DNA of 64,000 nucleotides from contig JAICOU010000002.1 of assembly GCA_025930495.1 (NCBI GenBank), forward strand, positions 1 to 64,000. The letters run 5' to 3'. A program made the position numbers and the translations under genes. Positions 20,761-30,174 of the stretch are shown in pieces. This stretch comes from Nitrososphaeraceae archaeon. Lineage in GTDB: Archaea > Thermoproteota > Nitrososphaeria > Nitrososphaerales > Nitrosopumilaceae. Each line of letters opens with the position of its first letter. Positions within the stretch are counted from its first letter, which is position 1. The notes below the pieces were generated by a model that was not told the DNA's origin, ran no database searches, and was given only the letters and a program-made list of their open reading frames with translations.

Positions 20761-21228
20761 TCAATTGTAAGGGCTGTATTGTTTGTACACTTTGATTACT
20801 GATTCATGATACATTTTTCTAATATCTTCATTTGTGGATGTGGCAAGCTGATTTACAAGATCAGTAGAAGTAATAATTCCTATCACTTTATCATCTTCTA
20901 TAACTGGCAACTTTCGAATACCTCGAGTATACATTAGATCAGCGACCATCCATACTGATTCATCTGGACCGATTGCAATTAGTGGAGTGGACATGATCTG
21001 TTTTACTGGAGTTGTGATCTGATAAGCATGAGCTACAATTTTTACTGCAAAATCCCTATCAGTGATTATTCCCATTGGAGTATTGGTTTCCATCACTATA
21101 ATTGCACCAACCTTTGCATCTTCCATCATTTTTGCTGCTTCATTTACAGTAAGTGATGAATCTACTGCAATTACGGATTTTGTCATAATATCTCTAGACG
21201 TGATTTTAGATGCATCTTTCATTTTCAA
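20761..21228 (-). CDS. CBS-pair protein
   Basis: DIMTKSVIAVDSSLTVNEAAKMMEDAKVGAIIVMETNTPMGIITDRDF...GIITSTDLVNQL. Confidence 0.93.
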   Translation of the reverse strand: MKMKDASKITSRDIMTKSVIAVDSSLTVNEAAKMMEDAKVGAIIVMETNTPMGIITDRDFAVKIVAHAYQITTPVKQIMSTPLIAIGPDESVWMVADLMYTRGIRKLPVIEDDKVIGIITSTDLVNQLATSTNEDIRKMYHESVIKVYKQYSPYN

Positions 21229-21335
21229 ATAAAGATTAAATTTTTAGTATATAGTGACTTTGTATAATATCATGGTTGAAAATCAAATCCGAGAATGCAT
21301 AAATATCTTAAATTCGATCCTTTTCTGAATTAAAC

Positions 21336-21758
21336 ATGCAAAACATAAAGAAAATCCTTGTTCCCATGGATGGTTCTAAGAATTCTATGAGGGGATTGGA
21401 TGAAGCAATTTATCTTGCAAGACAATGCCATGCAATAATTACTGGTTTGTATGTAATTCCATTATCCAAACCCGTCGCAGATTCACAAATTTCCCATCTT
21501 GAAAAATATCTACTTAATAATGCCTCCAAATTCATGTCAAAAGCAAAAACACGTGCTGCACAAAACGGCATTCTTTTTGATAGTGTCATAATTCATGGTG
21601 ATGAAGGACCAAAAATCATAAGCTATGCAAATGACAAATCATTCGATATTATTGTAATAGGCTCAAGAGGAATGGGTTCTATGAAAGAAATTTTTCTTGG
21701 AAGTACTTCAAATTATGTTTTACATAAATCCAAAATTCCTGTTTTAATAGTAAAATAA
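21336..21758 (+). CDS. Universal stress protein (UspA family)
   Basis: KKILVPMDGSKNS...IIVIGSRGMGSMKEIFLGSTSNYVLHKSKIPVLIV. Confidence 0.95.
   Translation: MQNIKKILVPMDGSKNSMRGLDEAIYLARQCHAIITGLYVIPLSKPVADSQISHLEKYLLNNASKFMSKAKTRAAQNGILFDSVIIHGDEGPKIISYANDKSFDIIVIGSRGMGSMKEIFLGSTSNYVLHKSKIPVLIVK
21340..21461 (+). repeat. 122-bp perfect inverted repeat, left arm (5' part of uspA)
   Basis: Identical to reverse complement of 23654-23775 by block-wise comparison. Confidence 0.9.
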
Positions 21759-21836
21759 CTAATTTTTTAATATCAGATAATTTCGTGATATGAAAATCAG
21801 GATCTTGTTTATTAGAAGAAAATTCTAGATAATGAT

Positions 21837-22277
21837 ATGGCACATACGTTTGTAAAAGATGTAATGATTAGTGATTTGATCACATTAGATGTGTCTACTT
21901 CGATTAAAGATGCGGCTAAACTGATGGATGGAAACAATATTGGTTGTATCATTGTAACTAAAAATCAATTACCAATAGGCATCTTGACAGAGAGAGATTT
22001 TGTTAAACGAATAGCTGCTAAAGAAAGGCCATTAACTACATCATTAGAAGAAGTAATGTCTTCGCCATTAATTGAAGTAAATCCAAACGAAACAGTTTGG
22101 GAAGCTGCACAAATTATGAAAACAAATAGCATCCACAAACTACCTGTCAAAAAAGATAATCAAATTATTGGAATAGTGACAGCAACTGATTTAGTAAAAA
22201 TTTGCAGTATGGGTTCTGATTCTGAAATGAGAAAAATTTGTGATCAGATAATTACCAGAATGCAAAAAAAACAATGA
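21837..22277 (+). CDS. CBS-pair protein
   Basis: VKDVMISDLITLDVSTSIKDAAKLMDGNNIGCIIVTKNQLPIGILTERDF. Confidence 0.93.
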   Translation: MAHTFVKDVMISDLITLDVSTSIKDAAKLMDGNNIGCIIVTKNQLPIGILTERDFVKRIAAKERPLTTSLEEVMSSPLIEVNPNETVWEAAQIMKTNSIHKLPVKKDNQIIGIVTATDLVKICSMGSDSEMRKICDQIITRMQKKQ

Positions 22278-22858
22278 ATTCCAAACAATATCACATCAAA
22301 TCAAAATTATGTCTTATCATGATATTTCTTACATTAATCCCAACTAGCACCGCTTTTGGTAGCCATATTTTTGATGATAGAGATGCATTTGCCCAGTATC
22401 TGGATATTGCACAACTCTCATCTGAGAAATACCTGCTAAAAATCGATGACAAAACATATGATGTCTATTATGGGTATCATGGAAGCTTTGAAGCGGATGT
22501 CAAAAAAATAGACGAATTGCCAAAACTAGCATATATGAATATCAATCAGGATAGAAAATCCATTGAAATCACTATGGAAAGCGTTCCATCAAATAGTGTC
22601 TTATGGTTACGATTACCCATTGAGGTGATTTATGCCGAAAATGAGCAATACAGACTGGTAATTGACGGTATAGATACAAAATATGATCTCACTAAATTTC
22701 CTGATCAATATGCAGTGGGAATGATAATTCCTAAAGACACAAAATACATTGAAATTATTGGGACTTCTGTTGTTCCTGAATTTGGATCATTTTCAATTGC
22801 AATTTTGGGAATTTCTTTTATTGGCATAATTCATTTTGTTAGAAAGATACATTTTTGA
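22274..22858 (+). CDS. Secreted surface protein with PEFG-CTERM sorting signal
   Basis: Signal peptide and C-terminal VVPEFGSFSIAILGISFIGIIHFVRKIHF. Confidence 0.82.
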   Translation: MNSKQYHIKSKLCLIMIFLTLIPTSTAFGSHIFDDRDAFAQYLDIAQLSSEKYLLKIDDKTYDVYYGYHGSFEADVKKIDELPKLAYMNINQDRKSIEITMESVPSNSVLWLRLPIEVIYAENEQYRLVIDGIDTKYDLTKFPDQYAVGMIIPKDTKYIEIIGTSVVPEFGSFSIAILGISFIGIIHFVRKIHF

Positions 22859-22880
22859 TCTAGACAAAGTATTCTGAAGC

Positions 22881-23357
22881 TTATCTAACTAATAACACAG
22901 GACATTTAGCTTGTTCGGAAACCCTTCTGCTTACACTGCCCAAGGTCTTTAGTTTCCCAATTCCATGCAATCCATGACTGCCAATTATTATTAATGAAAT
23001 TCTTTTCTTTTTTGCAAAGCTCAAAATTTCATTTGCCACATTACCTTGTGTGATAGTATATGATGTGGAAACTCCTTTTTGTTCACATCTTTTAACAGCC
23101 AATTTTAACATTTTTTCAGTATTTCCTCTAACTGATTCAGTCCATTTTTTTATAGCCTCTGTTTCGGATCTTGTTCTAGTTAGTCCTAGAATTCCAGGTG
23201 GCGCAATATAGTCTACATAAACAACCGAAAATAAAAAAATCTCAGAGTCAAGATTGTGCGAAAGTTCCATAGCTCTAGTTAATGCCTTTACTGAATATTT
23301 AGAGCCATCATATGGAACAAGAATTCTAGTTAGCATTTTTGAAAACATTCTAATCAC
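22881..23357 (-). CDS. Universal stress protein (UspA family)
   Basis: RILVPYDGSKYSVKAL...LIIIGSHGLHGIGKLKTLGSVSRRVSEQAKCPVLLVR. Confidence 0.94.
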   Translation of the reverse strand: MIRMFSKMLTRILVPYDGSKYSVKALTRAMELSHNLDSEIFLFSVVYVDYIAPPGILGLTRTRSETEAIKKWTESVRGNTEKMLKLAVKRCEQKGVSTSYTITQGNVANEILSFAKKKRISLIIIGSHGLHGIGKLKTLGSVSRRVSEQAKCPVLLVR

Positions 23358-23785
23358 TACTTTATGACTAACACTGGAATTTTGGATTTATGCACTATAG
23401 CGTTTGCAACACTGCCCAAGAAAACTTCTTTCAGTCCACTTTGGCCTCGGGATCCGATAACAATGATATCAAATTTTTTGTTTCTTGCCATTTCATCAAT
23501 TTCCACAGTTGGGCTTCCAAAAATTATTTTATATTTAAACACAATTCCTTTTTGAGCACAAATAGTCTTTGCAGATTCCATAAATTTTTTAGCTGATTTA
23601 GTAAGATGAATTTGATACGGCATCATAGCATCAGTAAAATTTCTTGGATATATTGGAATTACATACAAACCAGTAATTATTGCATGGCATTGTCTTGCAA
23701 GATAAATTGCTTCATCCAATCCCCTCATAGAATTCTTAGAACCATCCATGGGAACAAGGATTTTCTTTATGTTTTTTCTAATCAT
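23357..23785 (-). CDS. Universal stress protein (UspA family)
   Basis: KKILVPMDGSKNSMRGLDEAIYLARQ...IVIGSRGQSGLKEVFLGSVANAIVHKSKIPVLVIK. Confidence 0.95.
   Translation of the reverse strand: MIRKNIKKILVPMDGSKNSMRGLDEAIYLARQCHAIITGLYVIPIYPRNFTDAMMPYQIHLTKSAKKFMESAKTICAQKGIVFKYKIIFGSPTVEIDEMARNKKFDIIVIGSRGQSGLKEVFLGSVANAIVHKSKIPVLVIK
23654..23775 (-). repeat. 122-bp perfect inverted repeat, right arm
   Basis: Reverse complement identical to 21340-21461. Confidence 0.9.
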
Positions 23786-23844
23786 GTATGATCAATTCAC
23801 TCTTTTGGGATTTAACACCAAAGTAAGATTATCAATCATAATAA

Positions 23845-24738
23845 TTAAGATTCTGCAATAGCATTTACAATATCGGTCTTGGTGATAATTCCTACAAGTT
23901 TTGACTTTTTAACAACTGGCAGACCACTAATCCCATTTCTTATCATCAGTAATACTGCCACTCCAGCATCCTTATCAAATTCAATTGTAATTGGATTTGG
24001 AGACATTATATCCACAGCTTTGAAATGAAGGAGATGATTCATTTGATTTACTTGAAATTCATCAAGATTGCTTTTCATTTTATAATTTTCAACTTCTTTT
24101 GGATCAGCTGATTGAGATAACCAATAAGGTAATTTTGCTGGAACAAAATCTCTGTATGTAATAATTCCCACAGGTATCCTATTACGCTGAATAACAATTC
24201 TTGCAATTCTATTATGAATTAACAAGCTTTCTACATACAATAATGAATCTCCAGGCATAGCCGTAACTACATTTCTAGTCATGATCTTTGAAATCTTTAG
24301 AGGAGATGTTGCATGTGTCAAAAAAATAGATGCAAGATCAGTTTTTGTAACTAGCCCCTCCAAAATACCGTTGTTGCCTAAAACAATTATGGAGCTGATG
24401 TGATTTTTTTTCATTAATTTAGCACAATCATAAATTGAATCTGTTTTCTTTACTGTGATTAATTTTTTAGACATAAAACCAGAAATTTTGACAGATTTTA
24501 TTGGTTTATCTCCAAGTGTGTAGATCGTTTTTGCGATGTCTTTTTCTGTAATTATTCCAACCGGATGTTTTTTTGAATCTGTAACTACAAGTCTTTTTAA
24601 ATTATGTCTGAGCAAAACTTCCCTAGCATCCAATAGGCTGGCATTTGGGCTAATGGTGATAGCTCTTTTAATTATTTTATTAAGATCTGCATTTTTTAAC
24701 AACATCAATCGTAAATTGATTTTACGGGTTAAATACAT
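23845..24738 (-). CDS. Multi-CBS-domain protein
   Basis: Repeated GIITxxD motifs (HPVGIITEKDIA, LEGLVTKTDLA, PVGIITYRDF, LVGIITKTDIV). Confidence 0.92.
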   Translation of the reverse strand: MYLTRKINLRLMLLKNADLNKIIKRAITISPNASLLDAREVLLRHNLKRLVVTDSKKHPVGIITEKDIAKTIYTLGDKPIKSVKISGFMSKKLITVKKTDSIYDCAKLMKKNHISSIIVLGNNGILEGLVTKTDLASIFLTHATSPLKISKIMTRNVVTAMPGDSLLYVESLLIHNRIARIVIQRNRIPVGIITYRDFVPAKLPYWLSQSADPKEVENYKMKSNLDEFQVNQMNHLLHFKAVDIMSPNPITIEFDKDAGVAVLLMIRNGISGLPVVKKSKLVGIITKTDIVNAIAES

Positions 24739-24826
24739 CTACTCAAATATCAGTTATGAATATCAATCATGAAAATCTAGCTTTTCTTTTAATTTAAAAT
24801 GGGGGAATTCTGCAATAGGTATAACA

Positions 24827-25993
24827 ATGATTACAGACACAATTCACGCCCATATGAGAGATATTCAATCTACTAAAATAAAATCTCTGATTTCAAAAGC
24901 AACCACCATAGAACCCACAGATACACTTGCACATGTAATCGGTAAAATTACTAAGAATAATTCTTATGACGTTTTTTATCTTAAAGGTAAAAGTGTGCTT
25001 TCTACAAATACTAGGGCACTACTAAATGCCAAAAATATCAACAACATGAAAGTAGAGTCATTTCTTTATCCAATTCCACATGTGACACAAAATGATTCTG
25101 TCCAGAAAGTAGCAAACATAATCACTCATTATAGAATAAGAGAAGTACCTGTAGTAGACAAGAACAGAATAATTGGTGTGGTAACAGCCAAACAAATCAT
25201 CAAACTACTATCATCAAAGGATAACAAATGGATTAAAGCTAATCTGATTTACACTCAAAATCCAATCACAGTACCTTCTGATGAATCTATTAGCAATGCA
25301 AGACGAATTATGACTACTAAACGAATTGATCATCTCCCGGTATTGAATCAAGGTAAAATTAAACAGGTTCTCACGTCATATCATATACTGCAATCAATTA
25401 TGCCATCAGAAAAACAAGGACGAAAATCCATGGTTACAAGAACTGAACATTCATTAGAACTTAAAATTGGCAACACAGGAAGTACTAGAATTCCTCAATG
25501 CTTGGCTAATGATGATTTAAACAAAGTTATCAATTCAATGCTCAAAGCAGACACTACGTGTTGTTTAGTTAATCTACATGATACTCTTCAAGGTATTATC
25601 ACTTTTAGAGACATACTGAGTTTACTTGCATCCAAATTAGAAACTCCAATCCCGTTATACATTGTTGGCATGCCAGATGATCAACAAAATGTAAATTTGA
25701 TTAGTTCAAAATTTGGAAAAACTCTTAAAAGATTACAACAAGTGTATTCAGAAATACATGAAGCTAGAGTTTCAATAAAACAGCAAAGAACTGGGAATAA
25801 AAAAGAAGGAAAATACGAAGTATCCATTATGATTATTACTCCTCACCACACTCCACTAATTTACAATTCAGTTGGATTTGATCTAAGTGAAGTTTTAGAA
25901 GATCTAAGTGACAAATTGTTAAGAGTTTTATCCAAACGGGCAAAAAATAGAACTAAAGATAGTATCAGGAAAATCGGATTACCCATATTCTAA
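24827..25993 (+). CDS. CBS-domain protein with C-terminal HPF/RaiA (S30AE)-like domain
   Basis: CBS motifs (IIGVVTAKQII, LQGIITFRDIL) then SSKFGKTLKRLQQVYSEIHEARVSIKQQ...YEVSIMIITPHHTPLIYNSVGFDLSEVLEDLSDKLLRVLSKRAKNR. Confidence 0.85.
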   Translation: MITDTIHAHMRDIQSTKIKSLISKATTIEPTDTLAHVIGKITKNNSYDVFYLKGKSVLSTNTRALLNAKNINNMKVESFLYPIPHVTQNDSVQKVANIITHYRIREVPVVDKNRIIGVVTAKQIIKLLSSKDNKWIKANLIYTQNPITVPSDESISNARRIMTTKRIDHLPVLNQGKIKQVLTSYHILQSIMPSEKQGRKSMVTRTEHSLELKIGNTGSTRIPQCLANDDLNKVINSMLKADTTCCLVNLHDTLQGIITFRDILSLLASKLETPIPLYIVGMPDDQQNVNLISSKFGKTLKRLQQVYSEIHEARVSIKQQRTGNKKEGKYEVSIMIITPHHTPLIYNSVGFDLSEVLEDLSDKLLRVLSKRAKNRTKDSIRKIGLPIF

Positions 25994-26140
25994 TTAATAA
26001 AATTGATTCCAAAAATGTCATGAATGATTCATGGAAGAATTAACTAAATATTTTCGCAAAAAATAATTATAAAAGATGACGATTTTATTTTCTCATTACT
26101 CTAAATTTTGTTTTAACTGATAGTATAAATTCCTGGACAC

Positions 26141-26572
26141 TCATTTTACTATTAAAACAGGAATCTTTGCTTTATGCATTACATAATTTGACGTACTTCC
26201 CAGAAATGCTTCTTTAGCACCACCCATGCCTCTGGCACCTAGAACAATCATGTCATACTTTCCTGTCTGTGCAAACTTGACAATTTCAGAACCTGTGTGA
26301 CCGCCTCCAGTTTTGTACTTGAATGATGCTCCTGCTTTTTGAGCCCGTCTCATTGCTGGTCCAATTGCTTTGATAGCTTTTGTTTGTGCGTCATCTTTCA
26401 TTTTTTGCGTATATTTTATTCCAGCAGCTAGGGGTAAATGAAATACATAGAATCCAGTAATTTCTGCACCACCACCTTTTGCAATTTCAATTGCTCGATC
26501 TAATCCTCTAATAGAATTATTAGAGCCATCCAGTGGAACAAGGATCTTGTTAAATTTTACCATGTTTTTCAA
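26141..26572 (-). CDS. Universal stress protein (UspA family)
   Basis: NKILVPLDGSNNSIRGLDRAIEIA...IVLGARGMGGAKEAFLGSTSNYVMHKAKIPVLIVK. Confidence 0.95.
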   Translation of the reverse strand: MKNMVKFNKILVPLDGSNNSIRGLDRAIEIAKGGGAEITGFYVFHLPLAAGIKYTQKMKDDAQTKAIKAIGPAMRRAQKAGASFKYKTGGGHTGSEIVKFAQTGKYDMIVLGARGMGGAKEAFLGSTSNYVMHKAKIPVLIVK

Positions 26573-26730
26573 TTTATTTCTTCAAATATAAAAAATAGCA
26601 TGATTTTCACAGATGATATTGATGAAAATACTCTTGCATAAATAATCAATAAAATAGATATTACAAGACATTTAGAATTTATGCAGATTTGAAGAATATA
26701 TTAAAACAAGTAATACTCTAAATTGTAAAC

Positions 26731-27414
26731 ATGAAACTACATTTTGAGGATTTTATTTATGGGTCTATTGATGGTTCAGTTACAACTTTTGCAATTGTGG
26801 CAGGAGTTATTGGTGCTTCATTATCACCTGGAATCATTTTGATTTTAGGTTTTGGTAATTTGTTTGCAGATGGATTTGCAATGGCTGCAGGAAGTTATCA
26901 TGCATCAAAGGCTAGAAATCAATTCATCGAGATGAAAAGAAAACAAGAAGAATGGGAAATTGACAATATGACAGAACAGGAAAAAGATGAAATCAGAGAG
27001 ATTTACAAAAAGAAAGGATTCAAAGACGAATTATTAGAAGAGATAGTTAAAACAATCACATCAAGACGAAAAGTTTGGGTAGATACAATGATGAAAGAAG
27101 AATTAGGATTAATTGAGGATGGAAAAAAACCATTGGATAGTTCAGTAAGTACTTTTATTGGATTTAATTTGATTGGAGTAATTCCGTTAATTCCATTTAT
27201 GATTTTAATTTTTATGGGAATTAATACAACTTCAGAATCTTTCGTTTATTCAGTAATCTCTGTAATTGTTGCATTTTTTCTTGTAGGTATGATTAAAGGT
27301 AAAATTGTTAAAAAATCAAAAATAAAATCAGGATTCTACACATTAATCATTGGTGGGATTGCAGCTTTGGTTGCATATTTTGTAGGATATGGGTTGCACT
27401 TTTTAGTTCAGTAA
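26731..27414 (+). CDS. VIT1/CCC1-family (iron/manganese) transporter
   Basis: YGSIDGSVTTFAIVAGVIGASLSPGIILILGFGNLFADGFAMAAGSY. Confidence 0.9.
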   Translation: MKLHFEDFIYGSIDGSVTTFAIVAGVIGASLSPGIILILGFGNLFADGFAMAAGSYHASKARNQFIEMKRKQEEWEIDNMTEQEKDEIREIYKKKGFKDELLEEIVKTITSRRKVWVDTMMKEELGLIEDGKKPLDSSVSTFIGFNLIGVIPLIPFMILIFMGINTTSESFVYSVISVIVAFFLVGMIKGKIVKKSKIKSGFYTLIIGGIAALVAYFVGYGLHFLVQ

Positions 27415-27426
27415 TTTGGCGTGCGT

Positions 27427-28329
27427 TTAAAGTGATTTTATATAATCTCGTATAGTTTGGGCGGATATTTTTAATAAGTTACTCTCAGATTCGTTTAATT
27501 TGATTTCTATGATTTCTTTAACTCCAGTTTTGTTTATTTTTATAGGAATTCCCATGGAAACATCTTTTTCACCGTATTCGCCGTTTAATACAATTGATGC
27601 AGGTATGATTAGCTCATCATTTTTGATTATTGAACTAATCACATCAAAAGTATTCTTGGCAATACCAAACTGTGATCTGCCACCTAAAATTCTTAGAGAT
27701 TTCCAATAATCTCTAATTTCTGTTGAAATTGTTTGTTTTTCTGCCTCATTAATTATCTCAAGTGCGTTTTTTTCACTAACTTTTACTCGGGAAAAGATAG
27801 GCACCATGGAATCACCATGTTCACCCATTACTAGGGCATCGGTAATTTGTGATTGTTTAGTTCTAAATTTTTCTGAAAGCAAGTATCTAAATCTACTAGA
27901 GTCCAAACTAGATGCAATTCCTATTACTTTATTTCTTGATAATTGAGTTTCTTTCTGAAAAATAAACGTAAGAACATCTAATGGATTAGAAACTATTAGC
28001 ACGATTGCAAAAGGACAGTATTTTTTTATTTGATTTGCAATTTCTTTAATCATTTTAACTTGAGCATCCATCAATTCAATTCGACTTTTTAGATATACTC
28101 CTATACTAGCTGTAATTACAACAATATCTGAACCAGTTATTTTAGAAAAATCATCAGTGCCATGAATTGAAACATTTGAGTTTTTAGGAATGGCGTTGGA
28201 TATATCTAAAGCCTTGCCAATTGCTTTGTCTTTTGTATGATTTACTAATAGAACATCATCTAATGAATTAGAGATGCAAAGAAAAGCAATCGCGGAACCA
28301 ACCTTGCCACTACCTATTATGGAGATCAC
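27427..28329 (-). CDS. Malate/lactate dehydrogenase family
   Basis: ISIIGSGKVGSAIAF, VSNPLDVLTFI, VMGEHGDSMVPIFS. Confidence 0.92.
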   Translation of the reverse strand: MISIIGSGKVGSAIAFLCISNSLDDVLLVNHTKDKAIGKALDISNAIPKNSNVSIHGTDDFSKITGSDIVVITASIGVYLKSRIELMDAQVKMIKEIANQIKKYCPFAIVLIVSNPLDVLTFIFQKETQLSRNKVIGIASSLDSSRFRYLLSEKFRTKQSQITDALVMGEHGDSMVPIFSRVKVSEKNALEIINEAEKQTISTEIRDYWKSLRILGGRSQFGIAKNTFDVISSIIKNDELIIPASIVLNGEYGEKDVSMGIPIKINKTGVKEIIEIKLNESESNLLKISAQTIRDYIKSL

Positions 28330-28345
28330 TTTGGTCTCATCTCTT

Positions 28346-28816
28346 TTATTTAATAATTAATACTGGACAACTAGATTTTTGGAGGACTCCATTTGCAACG
28401 CTTCCAAGAATCAATTTATCTATTCCAGTTCGTCCATACGACCCCATTACGATGAGATCAAATTTACGAGATTTTGCATATGTTGTTATGTCTTTAACAA
28501 TAGAAATCGATCTTAAAATTTGTGATTTCATTGAAATGTTTGATTTGTTTGCAAGATTCTCTAGTTTTTCTATGTGAGGAATTATGGCTTTTTTCTGTTT
28601 TTTTAATAATTCAGCATCTGCTCTAGAATCATAGAATTTGTGATGCCATGTATCTACTTGAATGCATGTCAAAATTGTAATTTTAGAATCATATTTTTTT
28701 GCCATATCCAATGCAATTTTGAAGGCGTGAAGTGATTTATTAGATAGATCAAATGGAACTAGAATATTTTTGAACAACATTGTTTGCAATAATGCAAGTA
28801 TGTTATTAAAACTCAT
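28346..28816 (-). CDS. Universal stress protein (UspA family)
   Basis: LFKNILVPFDLSNKSLHAF...IVMGSYGRTGIDKLILGSVANGVLQKSSCPVLIIK; true start may be internal (MLFKN). Confidence 0.93.
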   Translation of the reverse strand: MSFNNILALLQTMLFKNILVPFDLSNKSLHAFKIALDMAKKYDSKITILTCIQVDTWHHKFYDSRADAELLKKQKKAIIPHIEKLENLANKSNISMKSQILRSISIVKDITTYAKSRKFDLIVMGSYGRTGIDKLILGSVANGVLQKSSCPVLIIK

Positions 28817-28910
28817 AGGACATTTTTAGAATTGAATATATGCCTAAAATGAGTGCAGTGCATTGCAATGTGGACTTACTTGTTATATCAAAAGGTGATG
28901 TTGGCATTCT

Positions 28911-29240
28911 ATGCAAGCATTAATTTCAGGAAGAAAGATAGAAGATGACTCAAGAAAAGACGCCATTCTTGAAGTTGTATCGGATAAATACTGTCGGGCT
29001 ATTTTAGAAAATACGATGGAAAAACCAAAATCTGCAATAGAGATAAGCGCTGAAACCAAAATTCCAATAAGTACTGTTTACAGAAGACTGCAAACTTTAC
29101 ATGATAACAAACTATTAGGTATTTCAGGTTCCATTAGTGCTGATGGTAAGAAATACTTTCTGTACAAGAGTAGAGTCAAAGCCATAGCTACATCATTTAA
29201 TGGCGGCAATATCGAAATTGAAGTTGTTCCTAATACTTAG
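28911..29240 (+). CDS. ArsR/TrmB-like winged-helix regulator
   Basis: SAIEISAETKIPISTVYRRLQTLHDNKLLGISG wHTH. Confidence 0.8.
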   Translation: MQALISGRKIEDDSRKDAILEVVSDKYCRAILENTMEKPKSAIEISAETKIPISTVYRRLQTLHDNKLLGISGSISADGKKYFLYKSRVKAIATSFNGGNIEIEVVPNT

Positions 29241-29268
29241 TATAGGTTCTTTTCATTTTGGTGAAATC

Positions 29269-30174
29269 ATGTCTGATAATCAAAGTTCTATTTTAAATCA
29301 AAAAATAATAGAGATACAGAATATGGAAAAAAAGTATTCATTCCCTGTTATTACCATTAAACCAGAATCATCAATTTTTGATGCATTGTTACAAATGCAA
29401 ACAAATTTTGTTAAACACATAGTAATTGCTACTAGAAACAAACCTGTTGGAATTGTTACTGAAAGAGACATCAATAGATTTCTTGGAGACGATAAAACTG
29501 CACATGCAATAGATGAGATCCCAATTAAACATGTCATGCAAAAAAATGTAATCACAATACATGATGACATGGAAGATTGTTTTGATCAATGTGCTGCAAG
29601 AATGGAAACTTTCAAAATTGGTGCAATTGTAATTGTCAATGACATTGGAGAATTGACAGGCATTATTTCAAGAACAGATTTGGCAAAATCTTATTCGGAG
29701 GTATTTGGTGGAAACTACTTGGTGAAAAATTTTATGAATAAGAAAGTAGTAACTTGTAGAAGAACAGATTCTCTTAAATTTGCATTAAATTTAATGAATA
29801 AAAATCAAGTTTCAAGGTTGATTGTAACTGATGAAGATGGCTATCCTGTTGGTCTTATTAGCACAAACACATTGTTGACACATAGTGATTATTTTACTAA
29901 AGGCAAAACACGATCTAGAGATTATTTACTTCCAACAAATGGAGAAAAACTTACTGTGAGTGATCTACTAACTGATGAACTTTTAACAATAAATGAAGAA
30001 GATGATCTGGCAGTAGCAGCAAGTAAAATGATAAAAAATAATATCGGCGGGATTCCAGTAGTTGATTCAAATCAAAATTTGATTGGAATTGTAAGTAAAA
30101 CAGATGTCGTAAGGGCTTTTTCTATTGTAGGGGCTCATAAAGAATTAAAGTCAAAGTACAAAGAATTGTATTGA
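29269..30174 (+). CDS. Multi-CBS-domain protein
   Basis: PVGIVTERDINRF, LTGIISRTDLAKS, PVGLISTNTLL, LIGIVSKTDVVRAF; likely start MSDNQSS at 29269. Confidence 0.93.
   Translation: MSDNQSSILNQKIIEIQNMEKKYSFPVITIKPESSIFDALLQMQTNFVKHIVIATRNKPVGIVTERDINRFLGDDKTAHAIDEIPIKHVMQKNVITIHDDMEDCFDQCAARMETFKIGAIVIVNDIGELTGIISRTDLAKSYSEVFGGNYLVKNFMNKKVVTCRRTDSLKFALNLMNKNQVSRLIVTDEDGYPVGLISTNTLLTHSDYFTKGKTRSRDYLLPTNGEKLTVSDLLTDELLTINEEDDLAVAASKMIKNNIGGIPVVDSNQNLIGIVSKTDVVRAFSIVGAHKELKSKYKELY

Follow-up and report, generated by a model that had tools for sequence, protein, structure and literature searches.

The hibA-like gene at positions 24827..25993 (+ strand, stop codon included) of the window, by which we mean the whole 64,000-nucleotide stretch of DNA analysed here, encodes a 388-aa Nitrosarchaeum protein that belongs, with a probability of about 0.9, to HibA, a family of ribosome hibernation factors in archaea. 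It has the domain architecture of HibA, an HPF fold at its C-terminus, colinear homology to the ribosome-bound protein, the PTC-loop region and the conserved Asp of CBS4. HibA was described by Madru et al. (Nat Commun, 27 April 2026; PMC13324472) by means of cryo-EM, translation-inhibition and knockout data, and the same fusion was noted in 2025 in the Haloferax protein HVO_2384 (PMC12607858). The design of a CBS module joined to an HPF domain is already known; new here are a clear member of the family from a lineage in which HibA was reported to be lacking, and a survey of that lineage. An earlier note, made from the letters of this DNA, had proposed a candidate hibernation factor and left it uncertain whether such a protein had been described; the functional guess stands, while the word candidate is outdated because the exact architecture is that of the published HibA family (PMC13324472).

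The hibA-like gene and its homology to HibA

The open reading frame is intact and contains no internal stop codons, and the frame antisense to it contains many. The host genome (1.4 Mb, 99% complete) has its closest named relatives in Nitrosarchaeum, an ammonia-oxidising archaeon of the Nitrosopumilaceae. Orthologues were gathered from whole genomes and 31 sequences were aligned; the frame is conserved over 30 relatives with identities of 29-95%. It is a real gene, far beyond chance. Nitrosarchaeum sp. BD3 has an additional copy of hibA (locus L054, 5980-7163) that is broken into two overlapping frames of 323 and 127 aa, the result of either the decay of a paralogue or a fault in the assembly.

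Comparison of a full-length wide profile, to which relatives from across the phylum had been added, with the PDB placed P. abyssi HibA (9sr9_H; 208 bits, E 1.6e-60) ahead of all other chains. The alignment is colinear, positions 8-376 lying on residues 5-387, and 9sr9_H has the same sequence as 9SRB-9SRF and 9T7H, the PDB codes deposited for HibA. A single-sequence search matches HibA mainly over the CBS part. The second-best full-length profile match, again with the C-terminal domain included, is 9l96_a, a 406-aa CBS protein present in four PDB entries. Similarly to the HibA proteins of P. abyssi (Q9UYR4) and T. barophilus (F0LKU5) (PMC13324472), the present protein consists of a four-CBS module and a C-terminal HPF/RaiA domain in ~390 aa and is colinear with them over the full length; unlike them, it is distant in sequence, comes from Nitrosopumilaceae and is known here from sequence and models. 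HVO_2384 of Haloferax volcanii shares tandem CBS domains and a C-terminal hibernation-factor-like domain, but is haloarchaeal and acidic, and was reported to co-purify with a Pat2 variant (PMC12607858).

The C-terminal domain

The C-terminal domain (residues ~268-388; 25628..25990, + strand) has an HPF/RaiA fold according to family profiles, the predicted structure and Foldseek. The stock models Pfam and NCBIfam are too weak to decide on it. Pfam PF02482 (Ribosomal_S30AE) scores 17.5 bits (E 0.007) with the whole protein and 19.9 bits (E 0.0012) with the C-terminus alone, both below the curated cut-off of 23.7, therefore the stock model was insufficient for accepting the HPF/RaiA-like assignment of the C-terminal ~100 aa made in the earlier note, which quoted the sequence exactly. 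The assignment is borne out by the fold and by the family profiles. When the domain was modelled alone, each of the 14 Foldseek matches below E 0.001 was an HPF/RaiA/pY or related ribosome-bound hibernation chain, and the next match (E 0.0027) is an unrelated protein. Identities to the HPFs are low (12-19%). A weak NCBIfam match (E 0.013) to a 6-pyruvoyl-tetrahydropterin-related domain was rejected, since the significant matches in the fold search were all HPF/RaiA. The comparison of the C-terminus with S30AE, which the note had put forward as a check, gave significant fold and family-profile matches while PF02482 itself stayed below 23.7 bits.

A narrow C-terminal profile (A2, a CBS-free query) run against the PDB ranks bacterial HPFs first (best E 0.0017) and does not reach Pyrococcus HibA at E<=10, and stand-alone HPF-like proteins are common in Nitrosopumilaceae. 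Both facts would suit a fusion of CBS and HPF domains that arose independently in ammonia-oxidising archaea, HibA-like in function and not orthologous. We consider this very unlikely: the domain order, length and boundaries are the same as those of HibA, the full-length alignment of the wider profile to HibA is colinear (1e-60), and with the wider C-terminal profile P. abyssi HibA comes first (E 1.9e-5), ahead of many bacterial HPF/RaiA chains. Moreover, full-length intermediate relatives occur across the phylum, and the HibA CBS modules are monophyletic in the published tree (PMC13324472). An hhalign comparison between the narrow C-terminal alignment and the lone E. coli HPF sequence aligned the last helix only, at a probability of 5%; with just one sequence on one side, this comparison lacks power. 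Bacterial HPF/RaiA/YfiA proteins (PF02482) differ from the present HibA-like protein in lacking the CBS module, and the present protein scores below the Pfam cut-off for them.

The subthreshold S30AE score and the low Foldseek identity to HPFs could also be read as signs of a domain that no longer serves hibernation and has taken another role, e.g. the binding of nucleic acids or protein partners, as the replication and recombination proteins reported in HibA pulldowns of Thermococcales (PMC13324472) might suggest. This is the least probable of the readings, and we give it hardly any weight: the domain is conserved and basic (net positive in 31 out of 31 relatives), has the HPF fold and is part of a complete HibA layout. 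The isolated N-terminal domain of P. abyssi HibA gave no significant inhibition of translation (PMC13324472), therefore the C-terminal domain is needed.

The CBS module

The N-terminal module (residues 1-267; 24827..25627, + strand) comprises four CBS units, i.e. two Bateman pairs. Pfam recognizes three CBS stretches (E 3e-28), and the AlphaFold2 secondary structure, with pLDDT mostly ~90 in this part and a mean of 82.6 for the full model, delimits four; CBS1 is degenerate in sequence, yet folded in the model. The CBS motifs that had been noticed in the N-terminal ~260 aa are confirmed by both. Foldseek matches of the module include AMPK-gamma, MJ1225, the Methanosarcina Sri proteins and Dri. 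The CBS modules of Dri (Pyrobaculum) and SriA-D (M. acetivorans) have been seen on ribosomes, but these proteins lack an HPF/RaiA domain, and the layout of Dri, two fused CBS modules with no HPF domain, is not that of the 388-aa protein. The CBS modules of HibA and Dri are reported to lie at the PTC in opposite orientations (PMC13324472).

CBS3 and CBS4 are linked by a basic, low-confidence loop (residues ~192-209; 25400..25453, + strand; pLDDT <50 at residues 196-204), which aligns with residues 190-207 of 9sr9_H, the PTC loop of P. abyssi HibA as defined in PMC13324472. The region between CBS3 and CBS4 that holds the PTC loop in HibA is kept, and is 25-31 residues long in 31/31 relatives. 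The long loop matches the HibA PTC loop in position and is of similar length, and it may contact the PTC.

Asp262 of CBS4 (25610..25612, + strand), the residue that usually binds the ribose in a CBS nucleotide site, is invariant in the 31 aligned relatives, and the equivalent acidic residue is mostly absent from CBS1, CBS2 and CBS3. This pattern fits the single AMP or ATP that P. abyssi HibA binds at the CBS3/CBS4 interface (PMC13324472). The Thr-Ser pair of CBS3 (T183/S184) is almost invariant in the same alignment, and the near-invariance of the CBS4 Asp and of this pair makes the putative nucleotide site plausible. The conserved Asp262, the loop length and the basic C-terminal domain are consistent with the proposed function and are no proof of it.

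Proposed function and adenylate control

HibA was found on idle P. abyssi ribosomes with its C-terminal domain in the mRNA/tRNA channel of the 30S subunit and its CBS module docked on the large subunit, at the PTC, uL5 or the L1 stalk; it inhibits translation, and a T. barophilus knockout shows a longer lag and has ~60% fewer 70S ribosomes (PMC13324472). The earlier note had not foreseen the docking role of the CBS module on the large subunit. A protein that joins a CBS module to a domain of HPF/RaiA fold is likely to be a ribosome hibernation factor, as that note had concluded and as the fold and the colinear HibA homology now support. By analogy with P. abyssi and T. barophilus, the present protein would bind ribosomes (30S/70S), inhibit translation and preserve the 70S pool in stationary phase. 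We propose that the HPF domain and the CBS module together would hold the 70S ribosome locked in an inactive state, shielded during starvation or stress; the HibA-like protein probably plugs idle ribosomes under stress and thereby protects them against destruction.

Whether AMP or ATP at the CBS3/CBS4 interface directly sets ribosome binding on or off, as the earlier note had proposed, is a natural hypothesis that has already been tested on P. abyssi HibA (PMC13324472). The plausible nucleotide site speaks for such an energy-gated switch, and so do the affinities of the P. abyssi CBS module, with a Kd of 12 uM for AMP, 65 uM for ADP and 113 uM for ATP (PMC13324472). However, in the reconstituted HibA complexes neither AMP nor ATP had much effect on ribosome binding or on the conformations, and the native complexes are described as nucleotide-free (PMC13324472). 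Direct coupling of the adenylate state to ribosome inactivation is thus not what was found for P. abyssi HibA in spite of its binding of AMP, and we regard the switch as unlikely; some adenylate control is possible and unproven.

The upstream region and the gene neighbourhood

The 88-bp divergent promoter region before hibA contains the conserved element TGAAAATCTAGCTTTTCTTTTAATTTAAAA (24770..24799, + strand), with a TATA-like ATTTAAAA ~30 bp before the ATG. The element is conserved upstream of hibA in most of the relatives inspected and occurs as a single copy in the genome, its chance expectation in the window being none. It is probably the hibA promoter. Beside the TATA-like box it has GAAAA...TTTTC arms, hence TGAAAATCTAGCTTTTCTTTTAATTTAAAA may also be an operator.

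hibA lies in a dense cluster (20761-30174) that comprises two short CBS proteins, two four-CBS proteins and five universal stress proteins; most of it is kept in Nitrosarchaeum and in some Nitrosopumilus. One four-CBS gene (297 aa; 23845..24738, - strand), divergent and stand-alone, adjoins hibA in ~20 of 28 named loci; the other (324 aa, also stand-alone) lies at 29200..30174 on the + strand. The top PDB match of both is 9zni_6, the chain of a CBS protein that is bound, alongside SriC and SriD, to the 70S ribosome of M. acetivorans. The classes considered for the two proteins were the hibernation classes CM-1/2/4/5 and CM-3 (HhpR-like regulator); with the HhpR model they score 56-59 bits against a cut-off of 520. 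In many ammonia-oxidising archaea HibA might act with adjacent ribosome-binding stand-alone CBS proteins as one stress-induced hibernation island, a proposal that we regard as doubtful. If true, it would go against the published statement that Nitrosopumilaceae lack such factors, and also against the mutual exclusion that is reported as a tendency for HibA and most other CBS hibernation factors.

Distribution in Nitrosopumilaceae

The text of the HibA paper lists Nitrosopumilaceae among the lineages without identifiable factors, and reports HPF/RaiA-like proteins in Nitrososphaerales (PMC13324472). Our survey covered 185 Nitrosopumilaceae genomes, each at least 80% complete. An HPF-like domain is present in 110 of these (86 of the 131 genomes of good quality) and in 11 of 20 genera. 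A genome-wide search for CBS and S30AE fusions had been suggested on first inspection of the sequence. An open frame of full HibA length (>=381 aa) surrounds the domain in 65/185 genomes; a PF02482 search of the protein's own genome missed the gene at 24827-25993. Only a short form of ~112-134 aa was found in ~43 of the 185 genomes, mostly of one large genus (g12, e.g. G094, G112 and G163), where stand-alone HPF/RaiA-like proteins of this size, with no CBS module, are the usual form; two genomes contain fragments only. The full-length and the stand-alone forms occur together in at least four genomes.

The HPF-like domain is absent from all eight listed members of a small-genome genus (g19). 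It is also absent altogether from two genomes of one genus, G003 and G007 (99% complete), which suggests recent losses. According to the record titles, the named full-length carriers include isolates from lakes, groundwater and other places than the open ocean. The conflict with the text of the HibA paper may be one of wording only, if planktonic members were meant. HibA is not missing from Nitrosopumilaceae overall: Nitrosarchaeum and a number of further genera have it, much of g12 has the domain on its own, and in other genera it was undetected. If confirmed, this distribution would make it possible to test whether ribosome hibernation is linked to habitat, freshwater and sediment versus the open ocean, in abundant ammonia oxidisers.
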